DNA from: Lacibacter sp. H407
Lineage (GTDB): Bacteria; Bacteroidota; Bacteroidia; Chitinophagales; Chitinophagaceae
Assembly: GCF_037892605.1 (NCBI RefSeq)
Contig: NZ_JBBKTU010000001.1
Location: 1,550,001 to 1,614,000, forward strand
Direction: 5' to 3'
Length of the DNA stretch: 64,000 bases
The position numbers were made by a program, and so were the translations under genes. The notes beneath the pieces were generated by a model, which saw only the letters and a list, made by a program, of their open reading frames with translations, made no database searches and was not told where the DNA came from. The stretch's first letter is position 1; each line of letters starts with the position of its first letter. This document shows positions 23,554 through 43,299 of the stretch, piece by piece.

Positions 23554-24570
23554 TTAATAATACCCCATCGCTTTCTTCAGTTCTTCCTTCATTCGTTTTT
23601 TTAACGACGCAGGTTTGATCACTTTCATTTCATTACAAATACCCAATAGCTGATGAACAAACTCTTCTGTCACGGTAACTTCTAATTCAACTACCAGTTT
23701 ATCATTTGATTCTTTAATGATCTGTTGTGTATGATGCATCGGGCTTACCTGCAACATGCGGGATGCAGGACCATATACTTCCATTACAACTTTCTCTTTT
23801 GGCTTTGGACCTTCCATAATGCCGGTGGAATATTTAAAGAAATCATCCGGATTAAAATCACGACGGTATTTAAATGCTTTGGTTCCCTTCTCTAAACCAG
23901 TGATACGGTCGAGTGCATAGGTAGTAAAATTGTTGTGCTTATTCGTCCAGCCGATGAGATACCATTTGTTACGCACTTCTTTCAACAAGTAGGGTTCCAG
24001 TTCGTGTGAACGTGTTTCGTTTTTGTAAATATTGAAATAGGTAAACGTGATCGGCAACCGGTTGACAATGGTTTCATACAATGGTTTGATCCAGTCTTTC
24101 CCCTTTTGTGTCACCGGTTTTTCAAACTGTACATATTGATTAATCGAAGGGTCTTCAAGATTTGCTGAAAGCGATAAACGGGTATTGATCTTTTCAATCG
24201 CTTCTTTCAGATTTTCAAACAGCGGAACATCGGCAAATAAACTCAGCGTATGTGCGGCGCTGCGTAACGCTTCACTCTCATCTTCATTCAACGACATGCC
24301 ATCGATGCTGTACTCAGCATCTTCATAAAAATAACCTTTGTGTAAACGATCGTATTTAATGGGAGCAAAATAACCCAGTCCCGCATCTTCACGCATGGCG
24401 ATCATATCCTTTTCAATGGTGGAAACTGAAATGTCATCTGCCATATCGCCGTATAACTCTTCCATACACCGCTGACGGATGTATTCCTTCGTAGGGTATT
24501 TGTGTTGACGGTTACGCAAACAACGATCGATGATGCGATAGCGGATAGCGGCACTTTTGTTTACAGGCAT
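23554..24570 (-). CDS. WYL-domain transcriptional regulator (YafY type)
   Basis: The protein has 338 residues and is cytoplasmic. An N-terminal winged-helix region (about 1-65, AIRYRIIDRCLRNRQHKYP, then VSTIEKDMIAMRED) is followed by a WYL sensor domain at about 140-260 (LEPYLLKEVRNKWYLIGW, then TTYALDRITGLE) and a C-terminal WCX-like extension. WYL proteins respond to nucleic-acid or small ligands and can repress or activate. It is 102 nt downstream of uxuA on the same strand, so it may be read through from that operon. Its target is unknown. Confidence 0.88.
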   Translation of the reverse strand: MPVNKSAAIRYRIIDRCLRNRQHKYPTKEYIRQRCMEELYGDMADDISVSTIEKDMIAMREDAGLGYFAPIKYDRLHKGYFYEDAEYSIDGMSLNEDESEALRSAAHTLSLFADVPLFENLKEAIEKINTRLSLSANLEDPSINQYVQFEKPVTQKGKDWIKPLYETIVNRLPITFTYFNIYKNETRSHELEPYLLKEVRNKWYLIGWTNKHNNFTTYALDRITGLEKGTKAFKYRRDFNPDDFFKYSTGIMEGPKPKEKVVMEVYGPASRMLQVSPMHHTQQIIKESNDKLVVELEVTVTEEFVHQLLGICNEMKVIKPASLKKRMKEELKKAMGYY

Positions 24571-24672: not shown

Positions 24673-25836
24673 TTAAAGCGCTTTATCCAATGCATATTCT
24701 ACCCCTCTCAATTCAGCCAAACCTTTTAAGCGGCCAATTGCAGAATAACCGGGATATGTTTTCTTCTTGAGATCGTCGAGCATTTGATGACCGTGATCGG
24801 GACGCATCGGAAGTGAAATATTTCTTCTGCGTTGCAGTAATACAATTTCTTTGATTACATCAAACATTTCTGTATCACCAGCTAAATGATCGGCTTCGAA
24901 AAAATTTCCTTCTGCATCACGCTTGGTATTCCGTAAATGAAGAAAATGAATGTTGTCACCAAAACGTTTCAACATGGCAGGAACATTATTATCCTTCCTT
25001 GCACCAAACGAACCTGTGCAGAAACACAATCCGTTTGCAGGTGAAGGAACTGCAGCTAACAGATCAGCAGCATCCTGTTCCGTACTCATAATACGTGGCA
25101 GGCCCAACACAGAGTAGGGAGGATCGTCGGGATGAATCGCCATTTTCAAACCGCATTCTTCGGCAACCGGAACCACCTGTTGTAAAAAATAAAACAAATG
25201 TTCTTTGAGTTTTGCAACAGTAATGCCTTCGTATTTTTTTAATTCTGTCAATACCTGTTCTGGCGTAAATGCATCATCACTGCCGGGAAGGCCCAGCATC
25301 ATATTGCTGAAGAGTTTTGTACGTTGTTCCTTATCCATCGCACCAAAGCGTTCATTCGCTCTTGCAATCTCTTCTGCTGAATAATCCGCAATTGCATCAG
25401 GGCGTTGTAATAAGAACAAATCAAAAATTACGTAATCAATTCGGTTGAAATAAAGTGCTGTACTGCCGTCCGGCATCGGGTAGGCAATATCTGTACGTAA
25501 CCAATCGAGCACCGGCATAAAATTATACGTTACCACTTTCAATCCGCAAGCGGCGATATTACGCAAGCTTGCTTTATAGTTTTCTATGTGATACATATAG
25601 TTGCCCGACTGACGTTTGATATCATCACTCACAGGCAGACTTTCGATTACCGTCCACGTCATACCTGCATCTTCGATCAGTTGTTTACGGAGGAGGATCT
25701 CATCGCTTGTCCAGATGTCGCCAACAGGCACATGATGAAGAGCTGTAACAACACCTGCACAACCGGCCTGGCGAATGTCAGCTAAACTTACCGGATCATT
25801 TGGTCCATACCAGCGCATGGTTTGATGCATCAACAT
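24673..25836 (-). CDS. uxuA: Mannonate dehydratase
   Basis: The protein has 387 residues, normal for the UxuA family, and is cytoplasmic. It dehydrates D-mannonate to KDG in glucuronate catabolism. The start MRWYGPNDPVSLADIRQAG, the HHVPVGDIW block, MAIHPDDPP (metal site) and the late MRPDHGHQMLDDL are all diagnostic. The M at residue 1 is used, although MHQTMRW at residue 3 also fits the family start. It follows xylA after 177 nt that contain two hairpins, so its expression may be separated from the xylose genes. Confidence 0.94.
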   Translation of the reverse strand: MLMHQTMRWYGPNDPVSLADIRQAGCAGVVTALHHVPVGDIWTSDEILLRKQLIEDAGMTWTVIESLPVSDDIKRQSGNYMYHIENYKASLRNIAACGLKVVTYNFMPVLDWLRTDIAYPMPDGSTALYFNRIDYVIFDLFLLQRPDAIADYSAEEIARANERFGAMDKEQRTKLFSNMMLGLPGSDDAFTPEQVLTELKKYEGITVAKLKEHLFYFLQQVVPVAEECGLKMAIHPDDPPYSVLGLPRIMSTEQDAADLLAAVPSPANGLCFCTGSFGARKDNNVPAMLKRFGDNIHFLHLRNTKRDAEGNFFEADHLAGDTEMFDVIKEIVLLQRRRNISLPMRPDHGHQMLDDLKKKTYPGYSAIGRLKGLAELRGVEYALDKAL

Positions 25837-26013: not shown

Positions 26014-27342
26014 TTAAATAAAGCGGTTCACAATATTTTCCAGATATTCCTGTTTGCCGCTTTTCGCTGCAGGTTCACCGTTTTCTAATGCATAAGCACG
26101 CAGATCTTCCAGCGAAAGTTTCCCTTCTTCAAATTCTTTTCCTTTACCACTATCAAATGAAGCGTAACGATCAGTTCTGATTTTTTTGTAATCAGATTTC
26201 TGTAAAATATCATCTGCAATAATGAGTGAACGGGCAAATGTATCCATACCACCAATGTGAGCATGGAACAGATCTTCCGGATCGGTACTGTTACGGCGGA
26301 TCTTCGCATCGAAGTTGATACCTCCACCTGCAAGACCACCGGCTTCAACAACCACCAGCATTGCTTCTACTAATTCATTTACATTATTCGGGAACTGATC
26401 AGTATCCCAGCCGTTTTGATAATCGCCACGGTTGGCATCCATTGAACCAAGCACACCTGCATCAGCAGCTACCTGTAATTCATGTTGGAATGTATGACCG
26501 GCTAATGTTGCATGGTTTACTTCAATGTTAATTTTGAAATCATTCAACAGATCGTACTGACGTAAAAAGCCAATCACTGTTTCACAATCATAATCGTATT
26601 GATGCTTGCTTGGTTCACAAGGTTTTGGCTCAATAAAGAACGTTCCTTTAAAACCATTTTTGCGTGCATAATCTTTTGCTGTGTGTAAGAAACGGGCAAG
26701 ATGTTCTTTTTCACGTTGCATGTTGGTATTGAGCAAGCTCATATATCCTTCACGTCCACCCCAGAACACATAGTTCTCACCACCCAATGCAATGGTTGCA
26801 TCCAATGCCGCTTTCACTTGTGCTGCTCCGTGAGTGAGCACATGAAAATCGGGATTGGTAGCAGCACCATTCATGTAACGGCGGTTTGAAAACAGGTTGG
26901 CAGTACCCCATAAAAGCTTTACACCACTTGCTGCCTGCTTTTCGCCGAGGTATTGTGTTAATGCCTGAAGCCTGCGATCATTTTCATTGATGTCGTTGGT
27001 ATAATCCACCACGTCCACATCATGAAAACAATAATAAGGCAGATTCAATTTGGTGATAAATTCAAATGCAGCATCAGCTTTATCTTTTGCACGCTCAACT
27101 GCATCGCTCTTCGAATCCCATGGAAAAATATGCGTTGGTTCGCCAAACGGATCTGCACCGCTGCCTACAAAGCTGTGCCAGTAAGCACAGGCAAACCGTA
27201 ACCATTCTTTCATACTCTTACCGGCTACGATCCTGTTTTCATCATACCAGCGAAATGCCAATGGGTTATCGGTTCCTGCTCCTTCAAATTTGATTTGAGG
27301 AATACCCTTGAAAAATTCTGTTTGTCCTGTTACTACTGTCAT
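26014..27342 (-). CDS. xylA: Xylose isomerase
   Basis: The protein has 442 residues, the longer class II form, and is cytoplasmic. It converts D-xylose to D-xylulose. The catalytic His is in YCFHDVDVV. Metal and substrate residues are in [28 protein letters not shown] and [20 protein letters not shown]. It lies 51 nt downstream of xylB and completes the xylose entry route for sugar released by the xylanolytic enzymes of this window. Confidence 0.96.
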
Positions 27343-27393: not shown

Positions 27394-28872
27394 TTAACTC
27401 AGTTGTTTCTGAAGCAATGTATTCCATTCTTCATATAAAGCATTATACTGTTGTGCTGTACCGTCTGGTTCAACCACAGCTAATGGTGTTGCATGGCTGA
27501 ATGCTTCTTTCGGATGTTTGTAAATACCTGCACCAATACCTGCACCCAACGCTGCACCTACACTTCCATCACAATTGTGCAGCTCTACCGGTATATTCAA
27601 TGTATTTACAAATGCTTTGGTAAACACATCGCTTAAAAACATATTGGCTTTGCCTGCACGAATGATCGACGGATTCATTTTATTTTCCCGCATAATATCC
27701 AGGCCATAGCGGAATGCGAATGCGATGCCTTCCTGCGAAGCACGGTACAGATGCGCATTTGTATGAATGTTGAGATCAAGTTGCTGCACATGTGCGCCCG
27801 CAATTTTATTTTCAAGCATTCGCTCTGCGCCATTGCCAAACGGGAGTACGAATAAACCATTGCTGCCAATTGAAACCGTTGCTGCAGCTTCATTCATTTC
27901 TTTGTATGATTGATTTCCGGTTGTGTTTTTTACCCAACGGTTGAGAATACCGGTTCCATTGATGCAAAGTAACACCCCAATACGCTTTTGTGTTGCGGTA
28001 TGGTTAACATGTGCAAAACTATTGATACGTGATTGCGGATCAAACGTAAGCTGATCGCTCACTCCATAAATTACACCACTTGTACCAGCCGTGGCTGCTA
28101 CTTCACCAGCTTCCAGTACATTCAATGAGAGTGCATTATTTGGTTGATCACCTGCTTTGTAGGTAACAGGTATTCCTGATTTTAATCCCAGCGTCGCAGC
28201 GTTTGCAGGTGAAAGCTGTCCGTGTTCGGTAAACACATCTCTGATTTCAGGGATTACTGATTTACTAAAACCATAATGATTGAACACATCTTCCGACAAT
28301 TCATTCTTCACAAAATCCCAGAACACGCCTTCCGATAATGCAGAGATACTTGTTGTGGCAGAGCCCGTTAGTTGCAAAGCAATATAATCGCCCGGCAACA
28401 TGATTTTACTGATCTGTTCGTAAAGAGCAGGTTCATGTTGTTTTACCCAAGCCAGTTTGCTTGCCGTGAAATTGCCCGGTGAGTTTAATAAATGTTGTAA
28501 TGATTTTGATGGACCAATTTCATCGAATGCCTGGTTACCGATTTCAACTGCACGACTATCGCACCAGATGATGCTGTCACGCAACACGTTGTTGTTTTTA
28601 TCAAGCACTACCAATCCATGCATCTGGTAGGAGATGCCAATCGCTTGAATATCGATCGGGTTATATTTTTTCGTTGCGTTCGCTTTTAAAATTGCCTGCT
28701 GTGTATGTTCCCACCAATTGAGAGGTGACTGTTCGGCCCAGCCGGGTTGTTTTGAAATGATCTCCGTTTCAGTTTCGGGATAACTCACCGACACAATACG
28801 CTCCTGCGTTTGCGCATCAACAACCGACACTTTTATAGATGAAGTACCAATATCAATTCCTAATAACAACAT
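27394..28872 (-). CDS. xylB: Xylulokinase
   Basis: The protein has 492 residues of the FGGY carbohydrate kinase family. LGIDIGTSSIKVSVVD is the first phosphate loop; GISYQMHGLVVLD and IIWCDSRA bind sugar; TAGTSGVIYGVSD is the adenosine-motif region. It phosphorylates D-xylulose to xylulose 5-phosphate for the pentose phosphate pathway. The order GH30-xylB-xylA on one strand, behind the operator region at 30.4-30.65 kb, suggests xylan-dependent control. Confidence 0.94.
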   Translation of the reverse strand: MLLLGIDIGTSSIKVSVVDAQTQERIVSVSYPETETEIISKQPGWAEQSPLNWWEHTQQAILKANATKKYNPIDIQAIGISYQMHGLVVLDKNNNVLRDSIIWCDSRAVEIGNQAFDEIGPSKSLQHLLNSPGNFTASKLAWVKQHEPALYEQISKIMLPGDYIALQLTGSATTSISALSEGVFWDFVKNELSEDVFNHYGFSKSVIPEIRDVFTEHGQLSPANAATLGLKSGIPVTYKAGDQPNNALSLNVLEAGEVAATAGTSGVIYGVSDQLTFDPQSRINSFAHVNHTATQKRIGVLLCINGTGILNRWVKNTTGNQSYKEMNEAAATVSIGSNGLFVLPFGNGAERMLENKIAGAHVQQLDLNIHTNAHLYRASQEGIAFAFRYGLDIMRENKMNPSIIRAGKANMFLSDVFTKAFVNTLNIPVELHNCDGSVGAALGAGIGAGIYKHPKEAFSHATPLAVVEPDGTAQQYNALYEEWNTLLQKQLS

Positions 28873-28979: not shown

Positions 28980-30218
28980 CTATTGTTCTACAAACGTTAC
29001 CACACTGTTGGGAGGTAATGTAAATTCAAAACTGTTATTAGCTGATGCTACAGCTGTGCCTTGCTCAACGTTCTTGGTTGAGGTGGTTACATACGGAACA
29101 AATGAAGCTGCAGTTACACCATCAAATGTAATTTTCTGCTTCACATTGTACGAACCTACATTGATCGCTACCACTACTTTTTTAGATCCATTTTTATAAG
29201 CTGATAGCAATACATCCAATCTTGAATTTGCCGACATACCTACTCTTACTGCGCCGGGTTTAATGAACCTTGCAAAATGCGAAATAATATATCCACGTCT
29301 TGTAACAATCCCATCCTGTCCTATCGGTCCGTAAAATCGTTTACCATACCACCATATGTAGGCGTTGAAATTTGCTTTTGTCAAACAATCGTGTATTTCA
29401 ACAGCAGTACTAATACCAGATGAATAGGTTGAAAGCGTATCCAGATGTTCTGTCATCCAGATCTGCTTTCCTTTACTTCTGATCTGCGGGTTATCGATAA
29501 TGCCACCACCATAAATATGCGTACCGAAAATATCGAGGTTGGCAACGGCAGCATCGTCGGCTAAAATTGTATTGATATAGGTTTGATTGTTATTCACCAG
29601 TTCAGGCGCCATTAATTTAGTAGCAGTAACGGCAGCACCGTGGTTCTTTAAAAAATCTCTCATTTCTGTTCCGGTCCAAACACAACTTTCATAATTGGTA
29701 TCCCAATCAGGTTCATTCTGCACAGATACTGCATGTAGAGGGGCACCGTTGTTCGCCATATACAGCGCAAAATCATTCAGGTATTTTGCATATGCAGCGG
29801 CACTATCCGGAATCAGTTTGCCACTGATAATGCTGTTGTTTGTTTTCATCCGGGCTGGTGGGCTCCACGGACTGGCAAGAATAATTGCTCCACGTTGTAT
29901 GGCAGCCTTTGCATAGTTCAATTCAGTTGCTCTCCATGCATCATCAGAAGCTATTCTTATTCGGAGAATATTCAATCCCACTTGTCCGTTTGCTGAACCA
30001 AACAATCGGTCAAACTCTTCTGAAGTTAATGCAGTTGTATTCGGCGGTGTAAAAACGGTTGCACAACCAAACCCTTGAATCACTTGTTTATTTTCATTTG
30101 TAAGAACAGTAGCAGCAGCATCAAGTGTAGCGATGACGGGAGTTGTATTTTTATTCTCACTTTTCTTGCAGGAAAGCAGAACCAAAAACAGAAATGGGAA
30201 AATTTTATTGATGGTCAT
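28980..30218 (-). CDS. GH30 family xylanase (glucuronoxylanase type), lipoprotein
   Basis: The start at 30218 (MTINKIFPFLFLVLLSC) is chosen over the upstream in-frame ATG at 30299 because it directly begins a lipoprotein signal with the lipobox LLSC. The mature protein has about 395 residues and is probably on the outer membrane. It has a (beta/alpha)8 barrel plus a C-terminal beta domain. The acid/base is E169 in VQNEPDW and the nucleophile E257 in WMTEHLD. The ASPWSPPARMKTN block is typical of GH30 xylanases. Members of subfamily 8 cut xylan next to methylglucuronosyl branches, which fits the GH67/GH115 enzymes nearby; the exact subfamily is an inference. Confidence 0.9.
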   Translation of the reverse strand: MTINKIFPFLFLVLLSCKKSENKNTTPVIATLDAAATVLTNENKQVIQGFGCATVFTPPNTTALTSEEFDRLFGSANGQVGLNILRIRIASDDAWRATELNYAKAAIQRGAIILASPWSPPARMKTNNSIISGKLIPDSAAAYAKYLNDFALYMANNGAPLHAVSVQNEPDWDTNYESCVWTGTEMRDFLKNHGAAVTATKLMAPELVNNNQTYINTILADDAAVANLDIFGTHIYGGGIIDNPQIRSKGKQIWMTEHLDTLSTYSSGISTAVEIHDCLTKANFNAYIWWYGKRFYGPIGQDGIVTRRGYIISHFARFIKPGAVRVGMSANSRLDVLLSAYKNGSKKVVVAINVGSYNVKQKITFDGVTAASFVPYVTTSTKNVEQGTAVASANNSFEFTLPPNSVVTFVEQ

Positions 30219-30422
30219 GAAAAGTAAATTTGTTGGCTGTGCTTTAGCGAATACTTGCTGTTTCGATGAGATAAAACATCGGTAAAACAGCAACAGCATT
30301 TCTGTAACAGTACAGAACGTTGCAACAAAGAAGCAAGTGGTGCTGGCAAAACAATCAATTCTATCATAAAAAGCACTGATGTTAAGTAGAAGCCTATTTC
30401 CGGAAAATGAAGGAAGTCAGAA

Positions 30423-30438
30423 TTGTAATCGGTTGCAT
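30423..30438. promoter_or_regulatory. LacI-type operator, downstream copy, GH30 operon
   Basis: TTGTAATCGGTTGCAT is a 16-bp imperfect palindrome with central CG, closely matching the three other copies in the window. It sits inside the predicted leader, 209 bp from the promoter-proximal copy. Confidence 0.65.
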
Positions 30439-30607: not shown

Positions 30608-30637
30608 CTAATGTAGGGATTTTTTTTTAAAATGCAA
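30608..30637 (-). promoter_or_regulatory. Promoter of the GH30-xylB-xylA operon
   Basis: Read leftward, TTG (complement of 30635-30637) and TACATTAG (complement of 30608-30615) are separated by exactly 19 nt, a good fit to TTG-N19-TAnnTTTG. The same arrangement, with the same TACATTAG, occurs before susC. Start of transcription would be near 30601. Confidence 0.65.
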
Positions 30638-30647
30638 CCGATTGCAT
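30632..30647. promoter_or_regulatory. LacI-type operator covering the -33 element, GH30 operon
   Basis: ATGCAACCGATTGCAT is a near-perfect 16-bp palindrome with a central CG, the hallmark of LacI-family operators. It covers the TTG at 30635-30637, so a bound repressor would block RNA polymerase. The tandem LacI genes at 43.4-45.5 kb are the candidate regulators. Confidence 0.75.
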
Positions 30648-30742: not shown

Positions 30743-32869
30743 TTAATTTCGTTTGATTTGATTCCATGCTTTCGTTACACTCTCCACCGGAAGTTTGCAC
30801 GTAGCATTGGTACATACATAGATCATCGTTTTATTGACCTGTAATTTATCCTGCAACAGGGGGAGGTTCTCTTCGTTTGCTGAACCCATGAACAGACAAT
30901 CGGGTAAATATTTTTTCTGCAACTCACGATTCCGGCTTTGTGCTTCGCTTCCCATTACAGCTACCTCGTAAGTTCCGTAAGTCATCAACCCCGACAATGA
31001 ACACCATTGTGCATGCCAGGCCGGTTGTTCGTTTATTTTACTGGCAGCAACAGTTAGCATGCGTGTGCTTTTGTTCAAATAGGTAGTATCAGATAGAAAT
31101 GTAGCAAGCGAATAAAGAACACCGGCCATCACTGCATTGGATGAAGGAATCACGTGATCCTGAATATCTATTTTCCTTACAACCAGATTAGCAGCATTTG
31201 CAGCTGTATAAAAAAACATGCCCGATGATGGATCGTAAAAATGACCCAACGAATAATCGGTGATCAGCTTTGCCTGCATGAGCCAATGTTTGTTAAACGT
31301 AAGCTGATATAATTTTAAATAGGCAGATGCCAGCCATGCATAGTCATCAAGAAAAGCATCAACCGAAGCTTTACCATCTTTGTAACTACGCAACAAGTGC
31401 CCGTCTTTTCCCAACATATTTTTTTCGAGGAACTCCGCATTTGTAGTTGCTTTTTGCAAATACGTTTCGTTGCCCGTTGCTGCAAACGCATCGAGGTATG
31501 CTTTGAGCATGATGGCATTCCAGGAGGTTAGAATTTTATCATCAACTGCGGGTTTCCTTCGTTTATTCCGTTCTGCAAATAGTGTTTGTCGGGTTTTATT
31601 CAACTGCGTAGTAAAGTCAACCACATTGATGTTGTTGGCAACTGCAAATGCAGCCGGCCGTTGAGTTGTGTAAAGAATATTTCGTTTCTTTTCCCAATTT
31701 CCCTGTGGCCGAACATGATAATAGGCAGCAATGGATGCAGCGTTTTCTTTGCCGGTTGTTTTTACAAACGCATCATAGTCCCATGCATAGAATGCACCTT
31801 CGTCGCCATCTGTTTCTGCATTTAACGAGCTATAAAAACCTCCAGCAGGCGATGAAAGTTCCCGATCAATAAAATCAAGTGTTTCAGTAAAAACAGTTTT
31901 ATAAAATTCATCGTTGGTCAATTGATAGGCGTGTGCATACAGGCTGATCAACTGACCATTGTCGTACAACATTTTTTCAAAATGAGGAACACGCCATAAA
32001 CTATCGGTACTGTAACGGGCAAACCCACCACCAATATGATCATACAATCCACCCAATGCCATTTTTTCAAGTGTAGTCGTGGCGGTTTTTAATGCAGTAG
32101 TATCACCTGTGAGATAATGGTACTGCAATAAGAATTCCCAAACGGACGGAGTGGGAAATTTTTGTTTTCCTTGCAGACCTCCGTTAACAAGATCAATTTG
32201 ATCGATCGCTGTTTGAAACATTGCCTGATAGCCGGCTTTGTTTCCTCGATCCGCTGTCGTAATATTTTTAAACAGAAGACTGTCGCTGTCAATGATACCA
32301 TAGGTAAGCGAATTTGCCTGCAACACAACCTTGCTGTATTTATTTTTATAACTGTCGCTGATTTGTTGGAGCAGTGTAAGCCAGGTTTCTTTTGTATAAT
32401 AGGTGCCTGCAAAAAAAGGTTTGCCGTCAGGAAGTGCAAATGCATTGAGTGGCCAACCTGCTTCTCCTTTATTCAACAGTTGACAAGCGTGCATGTAAAT
32501 ATTATCAAGATCAGGACGTTCTTCTCTATCCACTTTGATGCACACAAAAGACTCGTTCATTACTCTGGCAACTGCAGTATCCATAAAGGTTTCACGTTCC
32601 ATTACATGACACCAGTGGCAGGATGCATAGCCAATGCTGATCAATAAAGGTTTGTTTTCCTGTTTTGCTTTGGCGAGTGCTTCATCGCCCCATTCATACC
32701 AGTCAACAGGATTATCTGAATGCTCTTTCAGGTATGGACTTGACGCATGCTGCAAACGGTTTTGTGTTTGTTTCTGTTGCAGGTTTGTACAACCTGATAC
32801 AAACAAGAACAAAAGCATGATCCCATAACACGAATTTCTACACAACTCTTTTTTTGTTTTTGCAAGCAT
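30743..32869 (-). CDS. DUF255 thioredoxin-like protein (YyaL/SSP411 family), lipoprotein
   Basis: The ATG at 32869 is chosen over an in-frame TTG at 32881; the protein has 708 residues. An N-terminal lipoprotein signal (FLFVSGC) puts it outside the cytoplasm, unlike most family members. Residues ~35-200 are the thioredoxin-like DUF255 domain (HSDNPVDWYEWGDEAL, YASCHWCHVM with the CxxC, and VDREERPDLD). The rest is an (alpha/alpha)6-type region related to six-hairpin glycosidases (GGLYDHIGGGFARYSTD, VPHFEKMLYDN). Its biochemical role is not established. It lies 12 nt after the FG-GAP gene and seems to end the susC-led gene run. Confidence 0.87.
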   Translation of the reverse strand: MLAKTKKELCRNSCYGIMLLFLFVSGCTNLQQKQTQNRLQHASSPYLKEHSDNPVDWYEWGDEALAKAKQENKPLLISIGYASCHWCHVMERETFMDTAVARVMNESFVCIKVDREERPDLDNIYMHACQLLNKGEAGWPLNAFALPDGKPFFAGTYYTKETWLTLLQQISDSYKNKYSKVVLQANSLTYGIIDSDSLLFKNITTADRGNKAGYQAMFQTAIDQIDLVNGGLQGKQKFPTPSVWEFLLQYHYLTGDTTALKTATTTLEKMALGGLYDHIGGGFARYSTDSLWRVPHFEKMLYDNGQLISLYAHAYQLTNDEFYKTVFTETLDFIDRELSSPAGGFYSSLNAETDGDEGAFYAWDYDAFVKTTGKENAASIAAYYHVRPQGNWEKKRNILYTTQRPAAFAVANNINVVDFTTQLNKTRQTLFAERNKRRKPAVDDKILTSWNAIMLKAYLDAFAATGNETYLQKATTNAEFLEKNMLGKDGHLLRSYKDGKASVDAFLDDYAWLASAYLKLYQLTFNKHWLMQAKLITDYSLGHFYDPSSGMFFYTAANAANLVVRKIDIQDHVIPSSNAVMAGVLYSLATFLSDTTYLNKSTRMLTVAASKINEQPAWHAQWCSLSGLMTYGTYEVAVMGSEAQSRNRELQKKYLPDCLFMGSANEENLPLLQDKLQVNKTMIYVCTNATCKLPVESVTKAWNQIKRN

Positions 32870-32881
32870 GAAATAATTCAA

Positions 32882-35800
32882 TTAGTTGCGCTTTTCAAAA
32901 ACACGCAGGCGGTCATTGTTCGAACTTACAAGAATAGCGGAGCGATTTCCTGTATTGATCAACTGAATATCCTTTACATTATAGGGAACAAAAAATCCAC
33001 TTGCCATTGGCATGTAACTTTTGAATTCGTTATTGCCTAACCCTTTCAGAAAAACACCCGGAGAAGCATCAGCAGGAGTAGTTTCCACTTCCACATCAAA
33101 TTTATTTCCTGCCATGAGAATGTCTTTAATGCCATCTCCATCAAAATCTTTTACAATAATGCCGTTAACTGTTGAAAGCTGTGCCTCCATCGGCAACTTC
33201 TTTGCGGTGAACTTTCCTTTTTCGTTCACAAATACGACTGTAGAAAAAAGATGGGCTTGATGATGCAGAGCTGATTTTAAAGCATCATCACCTAAAATAC
33301 CTGTGAGATCACTTTCTGCAAACGATAAGTAAGTTGGAAATTTTTCTGTGATCATCGGGCATTGTTGCGATGTACATTCTCTTCCACGGATCGGAACCAT
33401 TTTATTGCTCAGATGCTTGGCAAGAAAAATATCGTTGGTACCATTGCCGTCAAAATCTTTTGCATACACTTCAAATGGTTTTTCAATGCTTGCCTGGAAC
33501 TTATAATTTTCTCCAAGGTTACCCGCAATTAAATCAAGATCACCATCACCATCAATATCATCTGCTACCAGTTTGTTCCACCAACCTGCTGTTTGATCAA
33601 CGCCGTAGTTGACGGAAACATCTTTCATTTTTCCTTTTGTGTATTCAAATACTTTAACAGGCATCCATTCGCCGGCCAATATTAACTCAACTTTTTTATC
33701 ACCATTTAAATCAGCTCCGATCGCTGATTTAACCATGCCGATATTGAGCAAGTCCGGCGCCAGTTCATTTGTTTTGTCAACAAACTTTCCTTTTTCGTTG
33801 ATCAATAAATAGCTTGTTGGCGGATAAGGATATTTATGTGCCATTACTTCTCCACCTCTGAATAAATCAAGATCGCCATCACCATCAACATCAAATGCAA
33901 CTACACATGATCCACTGCTGATAGTGGCAGGCAGAACCGATTTTGTAAAATTTCCTTTGCCATCATTGATGTACAATCGATCCTGATACATACCGGAACC
34001 TTCATTAAATTCACTGCCACCGCTTACCACATAAAGATCCAGATCTTTATCACCGTCTGCATCAAACAGCAACGTACCCATGTCTTCATATTTCTTATCT
34101 GCGTCAAACGCAGCAATAGTTTGTTTTACAAACGTTCCATTTAACTGCAAATACAAACTACCCGATTGATCTTTTGCTCCGCCAATAAAAAAATCTTCTG
34201 TACCATCAGCATTTACATCACCAGTAGCAACGAAGGGACCACTGCGGCTGAATTCATGCGGTAGTAATACCTGGTCAACATATTCATCCAGCTTATTTTC
34301 AGTATGCAGAAATGGAGTTGAAAGAAATTGATTGGTTACTTCAGCAAATAAGGGATCGTACACATAACGAGGATTACCTGATTGGACGGCTTGTTGATAG
34401 TTTACTTTTACAACCTGGTTCGTGGTAAGATTTTGCAAGCTGTTTGATTTTCCATCGGGCCATACAATTACTGCACTGTCGATCTTGTTAGTTTTTCCAA
34501 CACCAAAATGTACAACAGGATCGTTGGACGAAAGATAGCCACGCACTGTTTTTTGTTGAAAGAATTGCTGCAGCTTGCCTTCGTAATACAAAGAGATCTT
34601 TGCACCAATACCATCTCTGTTTTGTGCCGGACCCTCCATCTTCAAGCGCAGGAAATTATTTTTCTTATCAGTTACATTCTCGTACAGATCAGATTCTCCA
34701 TCAAGATTGTTGATCACAAGATCGAGATCACCATCATTATCAAAATCAGCAACAGCAGCTCCGTTTGAAAACGTACTGTCTTTGAAGCCCCATGCTTCAG
34801 AAACATTTTCAAATTTCAGTCCGCCTTTATTTTTGAAAAGATAATTCCTCACTTTAATGGGATCATAGATACTCATGTATTCTTTAAATCCTTTTGAAAA
34901 CATTTCTTCAGCCGAGTTGTACTTGTTCATGTTTGCACGGATGTACATTTCCTGCTTTTGCTGAATATCTCCATCGAACAGATCACGACGGTATCCATTG
35001 GCAACGAAAATATCCCTGTATCCATCGTTATCAAAATCAGATGCAAGTGTAGACCAGCTCCATTCGGTTTTCGAAATACCTGCCATTTGCGATACATCAC
35101 TGAAAAATCCATTACCATGATTCAGGTGAAGCACATTGTGCATGTATTGTTTGTGAAAACCGCTGTCAACGATCGCCCAAAATCCCTGCACATCCATACG
35201 TGGCATGGAAACTTTGGAACGCTTATAATTTTCCGGAAGCATTTCCATCACCAGAATATCTTCAAATCCATCGTTGTTGAGATCGGCGATATCAGCGCCC
35301 ATGGAAAAAAGCGAAAGATGATTGGTCATCGATTTCACTTCATCTTTAAACGTTCCGTTTTTTTGATTGATGTAGATGTAATCATTATCGGCATAATCGT
35401 TGGAAACAAAAATATCTTCCCAACCATCGTTATTGAGATCGGCAGTAACTACCGACAATGCATAGCCGAAATTATTTTTGATCCCTGCCTGTTTCCCGAT
35501 CTCAGTGAACTTGCCATTATCATTCCGGTACAATTTATCCCTGCAAAGATCCGGAGGGTTTCGTTTGCCGGATACCATTCGTGAAAGACCTAAGTAGAAT
35601 GAATCGGGACGGTTGGTTAGATACATGTCCAGATCATTATCATTATCCATATCAAAAAAAGCCGCATTGATCGAATAACTCTTGTCGTCCAGTCCGTATT
35701 TTTTTGCTTCTTCTTTAAATGTGAGATCGCCATTGTTAACGAATAACAGGTTTGTCCGTTCTTCATCTGTATCCTTATAACCACCTCTGCAAACATAGAT

Positions 35801-36232
35801 GTCCATAAACCCATCGCTGTTGATATCAACAAACGTTACACCGTTATCCCAACCCTTGCCACCATCAACATTTGCAGTGCTGGTAATATCTTTAAACTTC
35901 ATTCCCCCTTGGTTGAGGTATAGTTTATTAGGCACTTCATTTCCTGTAAAATAAATATCCATCAATCCATCGTTGTTCACATCTGCTGTGGCTACGCCGG
36001 CACCATTGTACACATACGCAAATGTGTCGAAATAATTACGATGGTAATTTTCTTCTACCATGTTGGTAAAATTGATGCCACTTTGCGATGTAGTCACTTT
36101 ATTAAAAACAGGATCGGCAGAAGATGTGGTGGTATCTCCCGTAGTATTTTTTTCTTTACATCCTGATGAAAGGATGAGTATGAACATGCCAATGATACAT
36201 GCAGTGCATGCGAATACAGTTTTTCTTGTCAT
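32882..36232 (-). CDS. Large FG-GAP/VCBS repeat lipoprotein with ASPIC/UnbV domain
   Basis: The start at 36232 (MTRKTVFACTACIIGMFILI) is chosen because it gives a lipoprotein signal ending SSGC and removes the overlap with the upstream gene that the ATG at 36310 would create. About 1116 residues. It contains many calcium-binding-like repeats (DVNNDGLMDIY, DINSDGFMDIY, DFDNDGDLDLV, DIDGDGDLDLI) that form beta-propellers. Near the middle is an ASPIC/UnbV region (RDGIGAKISLYYEGKLQQFFQQ, VHFGVGKTNKIDSAVIVWPDG). It is probably surface-exposed and may bind glycans or partner proteins. It follows the haloperoxidase gene by 22 nt; the two are likely co-expressed. Function unknown. Confidence 0.88.
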   Translation of the reverse strand: MTRKTVFACTACIIGMFILILSSGCKEKNTTGDTTTSSADPVFNKVTTSQSGINFTNMVEENYHRNYFDTFAYVYNGAGVATADVNNDGLMDIYFTGNEVPNKLYLNQGGMKFKDITSTANVDGGKGWDNGVTFVDINSDGFMDIYVCRGGYKDTDEERTNLLFVNNGDLTFKEEAKKYGLDDKSYSINAAFFDMDNDNDLDMYLTNRPDSFYLGLSRMVSGKRNPPDLCRDKLYRNDNGKFTEIGKQAGIKNNFGYALSVVTADLNNDGWEDIFVSNDYADNDYIYINQKNGTFKDEVKSMTNHLSLFSMGADIADLNNDGFEDILVMEMLPENYKRSKVSMPRMDVQGFWAIVDSGFHKQYMHNVLHLNHGNGFFSDVSQMAGISKTEWSWSTLASDFDNDGYRDIFVANGYRRDLFDGDIQQKQEMYIRANMNKYNSAEEMFSKGFKEYMSIYDPIKVRNYLFKNKGGLKFENVSEAWGFKDSTFSNGAAVADFDNDGDLDLVINNLDGESDLYENVTDKKNNFLRLKMEGPAQNRDGIGAKISLYYEGKLQQFFQQKTVRGYLSSNDPVVHFGVGKTNKIDSAVIVWPDGKSNSLQNLTTNQVVKVNYQQAVQSGNPRYVYDPLFAEVTNQFLSTPFLHTENKLDEYVDQVLLPHEFSRSGPFVATGDVNADGTEDFFIGGAKDQSGSLYLQLNGTFVKQTIAAFDADKKYEDMGTLLFDADGDKDLDLYVVSGGSEFNEGSGMYQDRLYINDGKGNFTKSVLPATISSGSCVVAFDVDGDGDLDLFRGGEVMAHKYPYPPTSYLLINEKGKFVDKTNELAPDLLNIGMVKSAIGADLNGDKKVELILAGEWMPVKVFEYTKGKMKDVSVNYGVDQTAGWWNKLVADDIDGDGDLDLIAGNLGENYKFQASIEKPFEVYAKDFDGNGTNDIFLAKHLSNKMVPIRGRECTSQQCPMITEKFPTYLSFAESDLTGILGDDALKSALHHQAHLFSTVVFVNEKGKFTAKKLPMEAQLSTVNGIIVKDFDGDGIKDILMAGNKFDVEVETTPADASPGVFLKGLGNNEFKSYMPMASGFFVPYNVKDIQLINTGNRSAILVSSNNDRLRVFEKRN

Positions 36233-36254
36233 CTTATTTCGTTTTACTGAGTGT

Positions 36255-37718
36255 TCAGTTTTTTTCGCCTGTGTGGTATAAATATTTCTGCCACACCAGT
36301 GCAGCAACATTACGTCCTAACTTCAAGCCTTCTTCATTTTCACATTGAATATGATAGCCTCCCAACACTCTTGATAGACCAGCCATATTCGCTGTTTCAG
36401 TAAATGTGGGAAATGATAAAGTTACTTCAGCTCCTGTATGTTCTGGCTCAGTCATTTCACCAGGTTTACGTTTTACCTCCACTCCAAATTTATCGCTCCC
36501 GGTAAAGAGCCGCAGAATTTCGGCACAGGCACCACTGATAGTACTATGACCTGAAATGTAACTAGGGAAAGGCGGACATAAAAATGTTTCGGGGGAATAG
36601 GGTCGCCATTCCTGTCCCGGCATTTCAATCATTCCTTTATCAGGACCACCCCAACCTTTGATTGTTTTATCTTTAAAATAATAATGCACCAGTGTATAAG
36701 GTCGTGCAAAATCATATTCCATTTTTGTATCCCAACATGCAATAAAACCATCCATAGCAGCAGCTTCAACAGCAAAATACATTTTTACGTCCTGATCTAA
36801 TGAATGGTTATCACGAATAGAAACATCCTGCGCAAAAATGAGCCAATGCCCTGCTTGTTGAACCGATTTTGGTCCGTCACGCATAAATTCCACCAATGCT
36901 TTTTGCTCATTGGAAAGTGCAGCTTGTAATTCCACTACTTCTTTCACTTCCTTTTCTAATTGTGCAGAGCCAATGGCAGGCGGAGGTTGACAACGAAACT
37001 GGCTGCCGGAGTCTAATAACAACGGCTTTACTTTACCCCAGTGTGGGGTTAAACAGGCGGGAGCAAATTTTCCGCCTTTACCGTCTGCAAAATATTTTGG
37101 CTGCCAACGTTTAATATCGATGAGTGTATCGGCGCTGTTGATGGGTATATAACCGGTATAATCTGAATAGACTTTTCCATTGGAGCCGGGCATTGTGCCT
37201 GTTTGATTGGATCCATCATTCAATCTTGCTTCGATAACTGTTTTGGCAGCAAGATTGCCAATACCCTCTGGTGTGGTTGGATCTGTTGAGTTATTATCCG
37301 GATCCAAACCAAATTCTTTCATTTTGTTGCGAAGCATTGTTGAATCGCTGTAAAAATATTCCAGCATAGCACGGTAAGCTGCATAGCTGATGGCAATTTC
37401 TTTGTTTTTTATTGTCCGTTCTTCTTCCGGTACCCGCTCAACCTGTTGCAGGTATAGGGGTCGGGCCTTTTCATCGTACCTCGACCATGCATCGAAAACA
37501 GCCGTCCACACAAGTCCCAACATTCGTGCTGTTACAGTAGGGCGTGGTCGAAATGTTTCGGTATCATTGGCAGTTGCTTCTAATGAGATTTTCCCCCATT
37601 GGTACGCTCTGTTATTGGTACCTGTTGGTTCTTCTGTAAGTTGTTTGTTGTTGCCGCTGCAAGAACAGAGAGCAACAACAAGAATAAAAAGTTGGATATA
37701 GCGACTCTTACCCTTCAT
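36255..37718 (-). CDS. Vanadium-dependent haloperoxidase / PAP2-fold lipoprotein
   Basis: The protein has 487 residues with the lipoprotein signal MKGKSRYIQLFILVVALCSC. The full vanadate-binding set of the PAP2/haloperoxidase fold is visible: KMEYDFARP (K332, R339), PSYISGH (S389, G390, H391) and SRVLGGYH (R450, H456), with the spacings K-x6-R-P, P-S-x-x-S-G-H and S-R-x5-H. Such proteins oxidise halides with peroxide or act as acid phosphatases; which one applies here cannot be read from sequence. Its position directly downstream of susD and before the UnbV lipoprotein is the odd feature for a xylan locus. Confidence 0.9.
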   Translation of the reverse strand: MKGKSRYIQLFILVVALCSCSGNNKQLTEEPTGTNNRAYQWGKISLEATANDTETFRPRPTVTARMLGLVWTAVFDAWSRYDEKARPLYLQQVERVPEEERTIKNKEIAISYAAYRAMLEYFYSDSTMLRNKMKEFGLDPDNNSTDPTTPEGIGNLAAKTVIEARLNDGSNQTGTMPGSNGKVYSDYTGYIPINSADTLIDIKRWQPKYFADGKGGKFAPACLTPHWGKVKPLLLDSGSQFRCQPPPAIGSAQLEKEVKEVVELQAALSNEQKALVEFMRDGPKSVQQAGHWLIFAQDVSIRDNHSLDQDVKMYFAVEAAAMDGFIACWDTKMEYDFARPYTLVHYYFKDKTIKGWGGPDKGMIEMPGQEWRPYSPETFLCPPFPSYISGHSTISGACAEILRLFTGSDKFGVEVKRKPGEMTEPEHTGAEVTLSFPTFTETANMAGLSRVLGGYHIQCENEEGLKLGRNVAALVWQKYLYHTGEKN

Positions 37719-37843: not shown

Positions 37844-39628
37844 TTATTCATATCCCGGATTCTGTGGGAACTTTGGTCCTTCCGACACAAGGTTGATCTG
37901 CGTTTGTGGTATTGGCCGAAGCATATTAAATGGCTGAACACCGGCAGCACCTTCAGGATTATACAATTTTACACGATCCACCAGTTTCTTTGTACGGGCA
38001 AGATCCCACCAGCGGGTATCTTCTGCATACAATTCCCTGCTGCGTTCATCCAGAATAAAATCAAGTGTTATCTGACCGGCGGTAACCTGTTGTGCGATCA
38101 CAGCGGCAGCGTATTCTGCGGGAGACTGATTTAATTTTAATGCGGAACGTGTACGTAACACATTGATCATATCCGCAGCATCCTGTAAAGTACCACCACC
38201 TTTCAACGCAGCTTCTGCAGCAATGAGGTACACTTCAGAGAAACGGAAGAGGATATATGGTCTGTCTGAATAGTCATTCAGATTTCCTCTTGTTGAGTCA
38301 TCAAATTTCCGAACATTCGGATAGTAGCTCGCAGTATAAGGAACTGTAGCTCCCGGTAAGTGATTTGGTTCAAACATAATTCCTTTGAACGCCGCTCTTT
38401 CTGCCGGTGTAACCAGGCGATCACGCATCCAGATCGATGTATCAATACCGTTGATCAGCTGACCTCTTGGTGTTACTGCACCGTTGGATCCTCTTACAGA
38501 CATTTCGGAGCTGTTAGAAAGCCAAACTGTTTGGAAGGTTCCTTCATAACGTGCATCTGTTGCTCTGTTAGCAAAGGCAACATCCATAATATACCTTGTG
38601 TTGGGGCGGATCCGTTGGAATGGACGACCATTGTTGATATCACGAACCGTAACATTAGCACCACCACCTGCCGGATAATTTGCATTGATAGTGGGATAGT
38701 TTGGACGCCAGAAGAAATTGGCTTTGTTTTCTGCTCCATTGGTAGCACCGGCACCTACTGCTGAGTTTTGACCGAACTTCAGATCTTTCGTATGATCGAT
38801 CACCATCAATACTTCAGAACTGTATTCCTGTCCTTCTCTGAAAATATTTCCGAAATAAGGCAAGAGATTTAAACCGTAGGTTGCTTTGTTATCGATCAAC
38901 GATTTTGAAATGGTATATGCTTGCTGAAAATCATTTGGCTGCGCTACTGTAGACCAACCTCTCCAGAGATGGGTTTTAGCCAAAAGGAACAGAGCGGTTG
39001 ACTTGGTTGCCGGCTTACCTAAACCTGCTGCAGGTGTATTCGGTAAATCAGCAGCCGCTTCCGTTAGATCTTTGATGATCTGTGCATACACATCTGCAAT
39101 TGGAGATGGTGCATCAGCAGCAGAGGCAGACGTATTGAAGGTTGTTTTTAATGGAACAGAACCAAACGTTGTTACCAAATAAAAGTAATTGAACGCACGC
39201 AGGAATTTAGCTTGTGCCAGCAACTGTGTTTTTTGTGCAGCCGGGATATTCGCAGCAGCACCATATTCCAATACACCGTTGGCTGTATTGATATTGATGA
39301 ACAAGCCGTTCCAAAAACCTAAGTAATTATCGGTGTTACTTTTGATGACCGCATTGTTATATTCAAACCAGTGCTGTACATCAGCCGCAGCACCTTTCAG
39401 AGATTCATCAGTACCTGCGTTAAATAACTGGGTGAAAATTTGCGTACCCCAATGTCCACGGAAGCTGGAATAAATACCTGCAATTGCTCCCTGAATACCA
39501 TCGGAGGTAGAAAAGAATGAGGGCGTAAACCCTGTTCTTGGCTGTTCGTCCAATAATTTCTTACAACCGGTGGCGGCAAGAAGCAAGGAGCCCAGAAACA
39601 GACTGAATATTATTTTCTTATGTTTCAT
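37844..39628 (-). CDS. SusD/RagB-family outer-membrane glycan-binding lipoprotein
   Basis: The protein has 594 residues. The signal MKHKKIIFSLFLGSLLLAATGC has a clear lipobox. It has the SusD TPR-like helical core (LLAQAKFLRAFNYFYLVTTFGSVPL) and the closing blocks PYILFRFSEVYLIAAEAAL, DFILDERSRELYAEDTRWWDLARTK and PIPQTQINL. It caps the SusC channel and captures oligosaccharides. It is 18 nt downstream of susC. The ligand is inferred to be glucuronoxylan oligosaccharides from the operators and neighbours. Confidence 0.95.
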   Translation of the reverse strand: MKHKKIIFSLFLGSLLLAATGCKKLLDEQPRTGFTPSFFSTSDGIQGAIAGIYSSFRGHWGTQIFTQLFNAGTDESLKGAAADVQHWFEYNNAVIKSNTDNYLGFWNGLFININTANGVLEYGAAANIPAAQKTQLLAQAKFLRAFNYFYLVTTFGSVPLKTTFNTSASAADAPSPIADVYAQIIKDLTEAAADLPNTPAAGLGKPATKSTALFLLAKTHLWRGWSTVAQPNDFQQAYTISKSLIDNKATYGLNLLPYFGNIFREGQEYSSEVLMVIDHTKDLKFGQNSAVGAGATNGAENKANFFWRPNYPTINANYPAGGGANVTVRDINNGRPFQRIRPNTRYIMDVAFANRATDARYEGTFQTVWLSNSSEMSVRGSNGAVTPRGQLINGIDTSIWMRDRLVTPAERAAFKGIMFEPNHLPGATVPYTASYYPNVRKFDDSTRGNLNDYSDRPYILFRFSEVYLIAAEAALKGGGTLQDAADMINVLRTRSALKLNQSPAEYAAAVIAQQVTAGQITLDFILDERSRELYAEDTRWWDLARTKKLVDRVKLYNPEGAAGVQPFNMLRPIPQTQINLVSEGPKFPQNPGYE

Positions 39629-39646: not shown

Positions 39647-42600
39647 TTAAAATCGAACATTAACTCCAAAAATGATCTGACGTGAAGGAGGGACACCCAT
39701 GCCTACAGTTATAGCACGTCCCTGAACAGGGTTCAAACCACCACCTTGGGAAGCCACCGCATTACCTGTACCATTACCTTCCGGATCAATACCTAAACCA
39801 TCTCTTACCAACGGAGCCCATAAAATGAATGGATTCTGTGCTGATACATAGGCTCTGATTCCGCTTATTTTTGCTTTGCTCAAAAACTTCTCAGGGATAT
39901 TATATCCGAAGTCAATTGTTCTGAGTTTAATGAAAGAACCATCACGATAAGTAAGCGTTGAAGTAAAGAGCAAGGCATCTTTACTTGCATCTGGCTGCGG
40001 GAATGCATTGGTTGGATTAGTTGGAGTCCAGTAATCAACTTTCAGTTGGTTTACACGGCTATTCAGGAAGAAGGGGTAACCGGCACCACCACCATCAGCA
40101 GACAGATAGTTAGCAACCACTGTTTGTCCGAAACGGCCAAACAGCACGATGTTCAGATCAAAATTTTTGAATTCAAAACGGTTGGATAAACCTGCTACAA
40201 GTTTTGGTTGGAAATTACCTACGATCTGCCTGTCAGCATCGTTAATCACGTTATCCTTATTTACATCTTCAATTTTGATATCACCAGGAGCAACTCCATA
40301 TACAGTAGCCTGGGCTGCCTCAGATGTTTGCCAGATACCAACTTTTTTGTAATCAAAAATAGTCGTGATTGGTTGTCCAACAAACCATCCGTTGGCACGA
40401 TCTTGTTGAAGTCCTAACTGCAACGCAACAATTTTTTCACGGTTAAAGAAGCCATTGAAATCAGTGGTCCATCTGAAACCGCTTTTGCTTTCGATATTGA
40501 CACTGCTTACTGAAAACTCTAAACCATAGTTTGCAGTTTCGCCTACATTCACAAGGATGCTGTTCACACCATTACTGCGTGGCAACTCACGGTTCAACAG
40601 GATATCGGTTGTGTTGTTTCTGTAAAAATCAACAGAGCCCGTAATACGATTCTTCAACAAACCGAAATCAAGACCGATGTTGATGCCCGATGTTTTCTCC
40701 CATGTAAGATTTGGGTTCGGGCTCGTGTTAATAAGATAACCATTTACATAATTGACACCAATGGCCGTACCTGATCCGAAATTGTAGAAGTTGTTACCCA
40801 AGCTGCCCAATGTTGTGTATGCTCCGATACCAGCATTCGAACTGATACCCCAGCCGGCTCTTAATTTAAGGCTTGAAATAGCTGTAACATTCTGCATAAA
40901 CTTCTCATTAGCGATATTCCAACCTAAAGAAAGGGCAGGATAGGTTACCCACTGATTACCGGGAGCCAACACAGATGCACCATCTGTACGCACCGTAGCA
41001 GTAAGGAGATATCTGTCATCAAACGAATACACAGCTCTGCCCATATAACCAATCAAAGCAGATTCATTGAAATTACCGCCCTGAGGGTTGATCGTATTTA
41101 CCTGAAGCCAGTTATAATCCTGCAAAAAATCGGCAGGCACACCTTGTCCGTTAAATTGCTGTGCACGGAAATGATTTTTTTGAACTTCCTGAAGCGCTAA
41201 CACTGTCAGTTTATGCTTACCGGCAAAGGTTTTATTATACTCCAATGAGTTATTGATCGTGTATTGCCATCCTTCTGAATTGTTCTGACTCAAGTTAGAA
41301 CCGGCAGGAGTTGCATTGATGTTAAATACAGTGTTTGGTCCTGTATAGTTGCTTGCAAGTGTTTGCGACCAGCCATAACCAAATGTTGATTTGAATTTCA
41401 GATCTTTCAGGATCTTGATCTCAGCATAAAAATTATGCTGGAACTGATATCTCCTGTTAAATTCCTTGATCAGGTCGTTATTGCCAATAGCAGTAAGCGG
41501 ATTGATCTGTGCGTTATCAACCCCTTGTAAAGCAGCGGGTTTAAAGTTAATTGTTCCATCGTCATTATAAGGCTTGTACAACGGCCCCAGTCTTGTACCT
41601 GCGCCGTATGCGTTTGTACCAAGTCTGTTGGCACGCAACAAAGTATTAAAGCTGGTAAATCCAACCTTAATGCGATCCGAAATTTTATGATCGATGTTTA
41701 CATTAAAGGAATACCGGTTGAGGCTCTGGTCATGTATAATGCCGGTCTCATTGTAATAGCCCACACCAAAAGAGTATTGTGTTCTGTCGGTACCTCCTCT
41801 AACACTTATGTCGTGACTGGTACGAATCCCTTGTGTCAACAACAGATCCTGCCAATCGGTGCTCACACCTGCCGCAAGGTTTGCCTGTTCCGTTGCATTT
41901 AATGCATAAGGATTGTTGTTGGCAGGGTTTGGTTGACCTTGTCTTGCATCTGTTTTAAACTGCGCATATTCTTCACCATTAAACAAACGATACGTGCCAA
42001 TTGCATTTACAACACCTACATACCCGTTATAGGTTGCGGTTGCTTTTTGCGAAGTACCACGTTTGGTTGTAATGATGATTACACCATTAGAACCACGTGA
42101 TCCGTAAATAGCTGTTGCAGACGCATCTTTTAAGATATCCAGACTCGCAATGTTATCCGGATTAATATCATTCACACTACCTCCATACACCATTCCGTCA
42201 ACTACAATCAACGGATTGTTGTTGCCGGTAAGTGAACGGTTACCACGAATGCGGATTTGACCCCCTGCGCCAATCTGCGTGCTGTTATTCACAATATCAA
42301 CACCCGGAGCACGCCCTTGTAGCTGGTTAAAAATATTCGGCGCCTTGATCTCGTTCAAGGTTTCACCTTTAATTGTAATAGTAGATCCGGTTACATCTTT
42401 TTTGCGTTGTGTGCCATAACCGATAACAACCACTTCTTCAAGTGCTTCGCCACCTACTACCAGATCAATGGTAATGGTGGTCTGGTCGCCGATGCGAACT
42501 TCTTTGTCAGCATAACCTACCGCTGAAACTACCAAGGTGTTTCCTCTGGAAGCACTGATCGTGAAGGCACCATTATTATCGGTGGTGGTTCCTTTGTTGG

Positions 42601-43087: not shown

Positions 43088-43103
43088 TTGCAATCGGTTG
43101 CAT
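43088..43103. promoter_or_regulatory. LacI-type operator, downstream copy, susC
   Basis: TTGCAATCGGTTGCAT is a 16-bp near-palindrome with central CG, inside the predicted susC leader and 206 bp from the promoter-proximal copy. It may allow DNA looping by a LacI-family dimer of dimers or act as a roadblock. Confidence 0.7.
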
Positions 43104-43269: not shown

Positions 43270-43299
43270 CTAATGTAGGAATTATTTTTAAAAATGCAA
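43270..43299 (-). promoter_or_regulatory. Promoter of the susC-susD operon
   Basis: Read leftward, TTG (complement of 43297-43299) and TACATTAG (complement of 43270-43277) are 19 nt apart, the same -7 sequence and spacing as at the GH30 operon. The flanking AAAGCTAATGTAGG block is also shared by the two promoters. Transcription would start near 43263. Confidence 0.65.

Follow-up and report, generated by a model that had tools for sequence, protein, structure and literature searches.

How the xylan and xylose genes of Lacibacter sp. H407 are controlled is the question raised by a 64,000-nucleotide stretch of its genome (the window, the whole stretch that was analysed), for which an original prediction proposed that one or both of the LacI-family proteins encoded there repress GH30-xylB-xylA and susC-susD together. 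The xylan loci of gut Bacteroides are mostly under the control of hybrid two-component systems or sigma factors. Judged from comparative sequence evidence, the cluster is probably a local regulon in which LacI-type repressors govern the use of glucuronoxylan and xylose, built around the following genes.

24673-25836, minus strand: uxuA, mannonate dehydratase (TIGR00695 above cut-off)
26014-27342, minus strand: xylA, xylose isomerase (TIGR02630 above cut-off)
27394-28872, minus strand: xylB, FGGY kinase (best NCBIfam match xylulokinase, below cut-off)
28980-30299, minus strand: GH30 glycoside hydrolase, xylanase-like (Pfam PF14587 and PF02055; XynC model NF052681 below cut-off)
37844-39628, minus strand: susD (PF07980)
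39647-42792, minus strand: susC, TonB-dependent receptor (Pfam; ATG at 42792)
43371-44402, plus strand: LacI1, LacI-family regulator, the faster evolving (PF00356, PF13377; identities)
44429-45457, plus strand: LacI2, LacI-family regulator, the slower evolving (PF00356, PF13377; AlphaFold model)
45465-47615, plus strand: GH67 alpha-glucuronidase family protein (family match)
48554-51112, plus strand: GH115 family protein, with an intragenic operator (family match)
51125-59160, plus strand: GH10, MFS transporter, two GH43 and GH3 (13-30 bp gaps between ORFs)

Leftward, susC and susD are followed by genes for VCPO/PAP2-like, ASPIC/FG-GAP and DUF255 thioredoxin-like proteins, and behind the second module come GH30, xylB, xylA, uxuA and the gene for a WYL protein. 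Rightward the order is lacI1, lacI2, GH67, SDR, GH115, GH10, MFS, GH43, GH43, GH3, two GFO/IDH/MocA oxidoreductases and a SASA-type esterase; 10 of the 12 gaps here are 30 bp or shorter (the other two measure 94 and 73 bp), and we infer that these genes form one transcript. Neither a hybrid two-component sensor nor an ECF sigma factor was found among 23 of the 25 ORFs of at least 150 aa between 23554 and 63781, the two remaining ORFs overlapping larger genes on the opposite strand. No NrtR-family regulator was found beside the xyl genes, the regulators present being those of the LacI family and the WYL protein. The WYL-domain protein (23554-24570) was considered as a candidate regulator; it lies beside the xyl genes in the related genome G003 and not in the stretches examined of G012 and G005, and it is not favored because those stretches lack it and the sites are LacI-type palindromes. 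As a separate observation, the VCPO/DUF6851-PAP2, ASPIC/UnbV FG-GAP and DUF255 thioredoxin-like proteins stand in a row behind susCD (30743-37718), and the same trio also adjoins xylan genes in G011, G001 and locus L078.

The two operator-promoter modules are present at 30608-30647 and 43270-43309, where their elements, together with a divergent -7 box, were read directly from the DNA.

30632-30647, no strand assigned: O1 of the GH30-xylB-xylA promoter, ATGCAACCGATTGCAT (exact pattern match, one of three in the genome)
30608-30637, minus strand: predicted GH30-xylB-xylA promoter (TTG 30637-30635, N19, TACATTAG 30615-30608; core shared with G011)
43294-43309, no strand assigned: O1 between susC and lacI1, ATGCAACCGATTACAT (exact pattern match; position kept in relatives)
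43270-43299, minus strand: predicted susC promoter (TTG 43299-43297, N19, TACATTAG 43277-43270)
43330-43337, plus strand: predicted -7 box of the divergent lacI1 promoter, TACCTTAG

As originally described, both modules have the identical spacing of a TTG, exactly 19 nt and TACATTAG, with a 16-bp CG-centred palindrome over the -33 TTG. Read leftward the palindromes are ATGCAATCGGTTGCAT (30647-30632) and ATGTAATCGGTTGCAT (43309-43294), and the G of GCTAATGTAGG falls one base to the left of the starts given earlier, a trivial offset. The TTG and the TAnnTTTG box are typically spaced 19 nt apart. TACATTAG differs at one defined position from TAnnTTTG, the box described for Bacteroidota promoters in the available part of PMC9723704. 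Across the 13 regulatory regions compared, TACATTAG stands at N19 in eight, among them the susC promoters of G011, G003, G002a, G001a and G004; G005 and two lacI2-uxuA regions (one each in G001 and G002) differ, both of the latter lacking the leftward TACATTAG, and elsewhere the susC-side box is TACTTTAG, in G009 (N19) and G012 (N20). The susC-side O1 also fronts the rightward genes lacI1-lacI2-GH67-GH115-GH10, which the original prediction had not included. The TACCTTAG box recurs in 7 of the 11 lacI-facing regions compared, the other four carrying variants, and no TTG lies 19 nt from the predicted -7 box of the lacI promoter. An Rfam search of the window gave no match at gathering scores.

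We propose that, without inducer, dimers of LacI1 and/or LacI2 would sit on the 16-bp palindrome, where occupancy of O1 would cover the -33 TTG of the leftward susC-susD and GH30-xylB-xylA-uxuA promoters and act by promoter occlusion. A repressor on O1 would also reach the rightward lacI1-lacI2-GH67-GH115-GH10 promoter at its -33 position, and for this reason the LacI proteins may repress themselves together with the enzymes encoded behind them. A sugar derived from xylan or glucuronate would serve as the inducer that releases the repressors. Joint LacI repression of GH30-xylB-xylA and susCD is upheld to the extent that one operator type links both and goes with the neighboring LacI proteins; the regulon as first drawn was incomplete, in that lacI1-lacI2-GH67-GH115 is also fronted by the operator, the operators are paired and one of them is intragenic.

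The search pattern, ATGYAAYCGRTTRCAT, was derived from the sites themselves, and its count therefore gauges how specific the motif is to the cluster and is not an independent discovery. In the 4.87-Mb genome the pattern has three exact places (30632, 43294 and 48731 of the window), where base composition predicts approximately 0.03 exact matches genome-wide; all three lie in the cluster, and the notion that the 16-mer might be equally common at unrelated genes does not hold. With up to one mismatch there are 8 genome places, compared with 2 for a reversed control, and five of the eight are in the cluster (binomial chance of at least five of eight within 18.3 kb, ~4e-11). Allowing a second mismatch raises the total to 57 genome places, compared with 30 for the reversed control, implying that the weak matches are mostly background. 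Within the window, up to three mismatches gave 12 matches with both strands counted (8 distinct places), whereas 100 shuffles of the window averaged 1.44 matches with a maximum of 9. Two of the one-mismatch places, at 303688 inside a short ORF and at 3936422 inside another ORF, were taken as chance. A further one-mismatch, operator-like sequence at genome position 215974 (L066 position 3975) lies upstream of an ORF near a distant susC; judged by eye from its sequence, this ORF resembles an ECF sigma factor, and the operator-like sequence is retained in G002, G003 and G011, where conservation extends to the flanks as well.

Across the related genomes the exact sites follow GH67 and, except in G006, the LacI proteins. 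They are present in all 10 same-genus genomes with GH67 and in none of the 4 without it (GH67 is present in 10 of 14 genus genomes, with a contig-edge fragment in G006), and they accompany LacI1/LacI2 in nine of the ten site-bearing genomes. The exception, G006, is a draft of 800 contigs with no LacI match above 35% and with its sole exact site in GH115; its lack of LacI is possibly an assembly gap. We also collected 56 loci with LacI2 relatives, of which we could use the 52 whose match lay 300 bases or more from the start of the locus, and scanned for sites with up to one mismatch to TGYAAYCGRTTRCA within 600 bp upstream of the LacI homologue. Among homologues sharing at least 50% identity, 22 of 27 had such a site; the count was 7 of 16 in the 35-49% range and 0 of 9 at lower identity, and the reversed control gave 0 of 52. 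The 27 include same-genus loci (L075, L076, L077, L083 and L098, from G009, G001, G002 and G012), without which the count is 18 of 22, and of the five close homologues lacking a near-exact site in the 600 bp one, L075, has a site at -621. The true binder could instead be a different LacI paralog or a LacI-family global regulator, with LacI1 and LacI2 acting elsewhere, as might be argued from seven further LacI-family matches in the genome besides LacI1 and LacI2, from the two-mismatch count above control (57 versus 30) and from the exact site without close LacI1/LacI2 in the G006 draft. The company of exact sites with LacI1/LacI2 in nine of ten genomes and the near-exact sites upstream of lacI genes in other genera make this very unlikely, and we retain LacI1 and LacI2 as the putative binders. 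Set apart from these counts, distant LacI relatives (37-39% identity) in the Flavobacteriaceae-type genomes of L108, L112, L114, L115, L116 and L122 carry sites resembling TGTAATCGATTACA close to their lacI genes, often two of them and with symmetric centres, and in some of these loci uxuA or SDR genes are close by.

Both proteins have PF00356, PF00532 and PF13377 (a helix-turn-helix with a periplasmic-binding-protein-like sensor), as members of the LacI/GalR family do. The hinge leucine of this family is present as L59, which is invariant in FAS(N/S)LR across 14 aligned proteins and which we take to be the equivalent of LacI Leu56 at the CG step, and O1, O2 and the GH115 operator are 16-bp near-palindromes with a central CG, the even type recognized by LacI proteins. 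An AlphaFold model of LacI2 (mean pLDDT 85) matches the structures of CcpA, PurR and LacI, with a low-confidence hinge. Compared with each other, the window's LacI1 and LacI2 show 53% identity; LacI2 shares 90-94% with its orthologues in G011, G003, G002, G001 and G009 and 76% in G004, and LacI1 shares 66-74% in G011, G003, G002 and G001 and 57% in G004. In a tree of 50 proteins the LacI1 and LacI2 groups are separate (support 100/98 and 100/100), with weak deeper forks, and since both groups include other Chitinophagaceae the duplication is older than the genus. The proteins have 342-343 aa compared with 360 for LacI, and a Lac-type tetramer would not be expected because LacI2 (342 aa) is shorter and its profile alignment ends at LacI residue 312.

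The regulators of G012 (L057:2980-3987), G005 (L060:16851-17861) and L086:10001-11011 appear composite. Their first 62 residues group with Lacibacter LacI1 (local support 0.92-0.99), whereas the remainder falls with LacI2-type proteins at a support of only 0.36-0.55 and an identity of 69-75% to LacI2 versus 48-50% to LacI1; first-part identity to LacI1 versus LacI2 is clearly different in G012 (80/67%), and the difference is small in G005 (68/62%) and L086 (73/70%). This suggests that the DNA-binding domain was exchanged between the tandem paralogs. No second LacI match above 35% was found in G012 or G005, and because their single regulators keep the operator pair, the LacI1-type DNA-binding domain can be tied to the operator. 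Loci with LacI2 but without an adjacent LacI1 also keep the site (G001b, G002b and L080, the last with one LacI2 and a site in a 21-kb locus), and the tie of the LacI2-type domain is weaker because G001 and G002 have LacI1 elsewhere and G009 has a shortened LacI1. This shortened gene (G009:C3:380723-381202) has its end in another frame in a draft assembly, and the adjacent operator is kept.

Each module has a second operator, O2, approximately 207 bp downstream, which the original prediction lacked.

30423-30438, no strand assigned: O2 of the GH30 leader (1 mismatch; 209 bp from O1; pair also in G011 at 204 bp)
43088-43103, no strand assigned: O2 of the susC leader (1 mismatch; 206 bp from O1; partner in relatives at up to 2 mismatches)

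In 9 same-genus genomes, 13 regulatory regions carry O1 as an exact match outside GH115, and every one of them has a partner O2 at 204-230 bp, 212.7 bp on average; this partner has up to one mismatch in 10 regions and two mismatches in three, namely G009 and the lacI2-uxuA regions of G001 and G002. Over eight of them (seven susC-side regions and G009, where xylB takes the place of susC; G005, two GH30 regions and two lacI2-uxuA regions were left out), mean pairwise identity is 0.98 for O1, 0.85 for the promoter core and 0.93 for O2, and the stretch between core and O2 is at 0.61 compared with 0.59 for shuffled sequence. The two modules might also have arisen as a promoter duplication with no common regulation, and the second module is indeed found upstream of GH30 only in G000 and G011 among the stretches examined; yet the window's two regions are no more alike than shuffled sequence outside O1, core and O2, so that only the operator and promoter parts are common to both, and we consider a mere duplication barely credible beside shared control by the LacI proteins.

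The pairing allows for a repression loop, in which LacI dimers at O1 and O2, directly or as a LacI1-LacI2 assembly, close a ~210-bp loop and shut the divergent promoters. Comparable loops are those of gal or ara in E. coli. Such a loop would account for the narrow 204-230 bp spacing in 13 regions, held although the intervening DNA is fully diverged in the eight compared, and for the opposite orientation of O1 and O2 in 11 of the 13. The 13 related spacings, however, did not cluster by helical phase (R 0.25 at 10.5 bp, p ~0.44; R 0.19-0.31 and p 0.28-0.62 for repeats of 10.0-11.5 bp), leaving a rigid loop unsupported, and LacI2, with 342 aa against 360, aligns only to LacI residue 312; we regard the loop as possible but unlikely. 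The operator centre is consistently asymmetric (AACCGATT, one half AAC and the other AAT); the O1 centre is the same in all 13 regions, and in 11 of them O2 runs opposite to O1. A heterodimer as the source of this asymmetry is weakened by G012 and G005, which have one such regulator each and equally asymmetric sites.

An additional operator, also new relative to the original prediction, lies within an enzyme gene.

48731-48746, no strand assigned: operator inside the GH115 coding sequence, ATGCAATCGGTTACAT (exact pattern match)

It starts 177 nt into GH115 and lies within a 23-nt run that is invariant in five species, and it is present in G006 too (six species). This run is the second longest invariant run of the 2556-nt codon alignment, the longest being 28 nt, and the adjoining 60-nt windows have 57% (three run bases included) and 30% identical columns. 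The site is absent from GH115 of G004 and G012, and no GH115 was found in the locus stretches examined of G005 and G009; for these reasons it seems restricted to one clade. Conservation of the 16-mer for protein reasons alone would fit with the amino acids DMQSVTLK, identical in the five aligned species, and with the one longer invariant run of the gene (28 nt), but we find it rather improbable: the codons ATG CAA TCG GTT ACA TTG are identical in all five species, so that the Q, S, V, T and L codons are all unchanged where, in GH115 overall, just 217 of the 602 degenerate codons that encode a shared residue are the same across the five species, the protein sequence around the site is variable, and the invariant run is an exact match to the operator pattern. 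Taken as an operator, the GH115 site, like O2 (~170 bp into the predicted leader), would be an auxiliary operator in transcribed DNA. Given the absence of helical phase and of an expected Lac-type tetramer, we favor over a rigid loop the tentative reading, a little short of an even chance, that the main role of the auxiliary operators is to stop polymerase during elongation, as roadblocks, or to increase the repressor concentration locally. A more elaborate arrangement, in which LacI1 and LacI2 with exchangeable DNA-binding domains would act jointly on the asymmetric inverted operators ~210 bp apart and bridge promoter and leader as a mixed LacI1-LacI2 complex, with the GH115 operator tuning the distal operon, appears doubtful.

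A sequence-defined LacI regulon of this kind would tie uptake across the outer membrane to xylan enzymes and to the use of xylose in the cytoplasm of environmental Bacteroidota; its conserved leader and intragenic operators would be specific cases of LacI-family sites in transcribed DNA, and the operator could be used for xylan regulon prediction in related genera. The original suggestion of a LacI-based alternative for xylan loci was overstated, the idea not being new: XylR of Xanthomonas is of the LacI type (PMC13282271; see also the review PMC10766802) and LacI genes occur in Bacteroidota xylan loci. As the available text of PMC13282271 describes them, the Xanthomonas xylan CUT loci are alike in placing a LacI-type repressor over TonB-dependent uptake and xylan enzymes; XylR is proteobacterial and is likened here by description, not by orthology or operator, and in Lacibacter the paralogs are two in tandem, the operators are paired and one operator is intragenic. 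Closer in phylum, KdgR, UxaR, UxuR and UxmR of Bacteroides are LacI-family uronate regulators (PMC3878776, PMC4052901), which recalls uxuA in the Lacibacter cluster, but the excerpts of these sources list them for monosaccharide uronates rather than for a xylan locus with susCD. UxuR2 of Algoriphagus marincola HL-49 is similar as a predicted LacI-family regulator of two sugar loci in Bacteroidota, although these are galacturonate and glucuronate loci and the likeness is drawn without motif comparison (PMC5507952, in part). XylR of Bacteroides thetaiotaomicron is a xylose regulator of the same phylum, but the portion of PMC3878776 at hand assigns it to the NrtR family, not to LacI.

LacI-family genes are also found in the Gramella flava xylan loci (PMC5306329), and LacI is among the regulators of beta-1,3-xylan loci, most of which are in Bacteroidota (PMC12125979). 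As in Lacibacter, a LacI-family gene there accompanies xylA, xylB and TonB-dependent transporters, but the likeness stays at the annotation level, the accessible sections of both papers not describing an operator or regulon. Among the matches listed from the open-licence literature, Bacteroidota LacI proteins and xylan meet in annotation-level mentions only, and this operator or a Lacibacter xylan regulon is not described. With regard to operators, the relevant part of PMC4052901, a large comparative study, gives LacI-family operators as mostly even palindromes with a central CG, and places less than 1% of sites in coding regions and approximately 7% more than 200 bp upstream. The E. coli lac operators and the PurR site in purB (PMC4052901, same part) are alike in that a LacI-family operator occurs at the promoter and in coding DNA; compared with these, the Lacibacter leader operator is ~210 bp away and the coding operator ~5.4 kb downstream, in the fifth gene. 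Switches of this type are well known, but the layout, with pairs ~210 bp apart and one site in an enzyme gene, is unusual.
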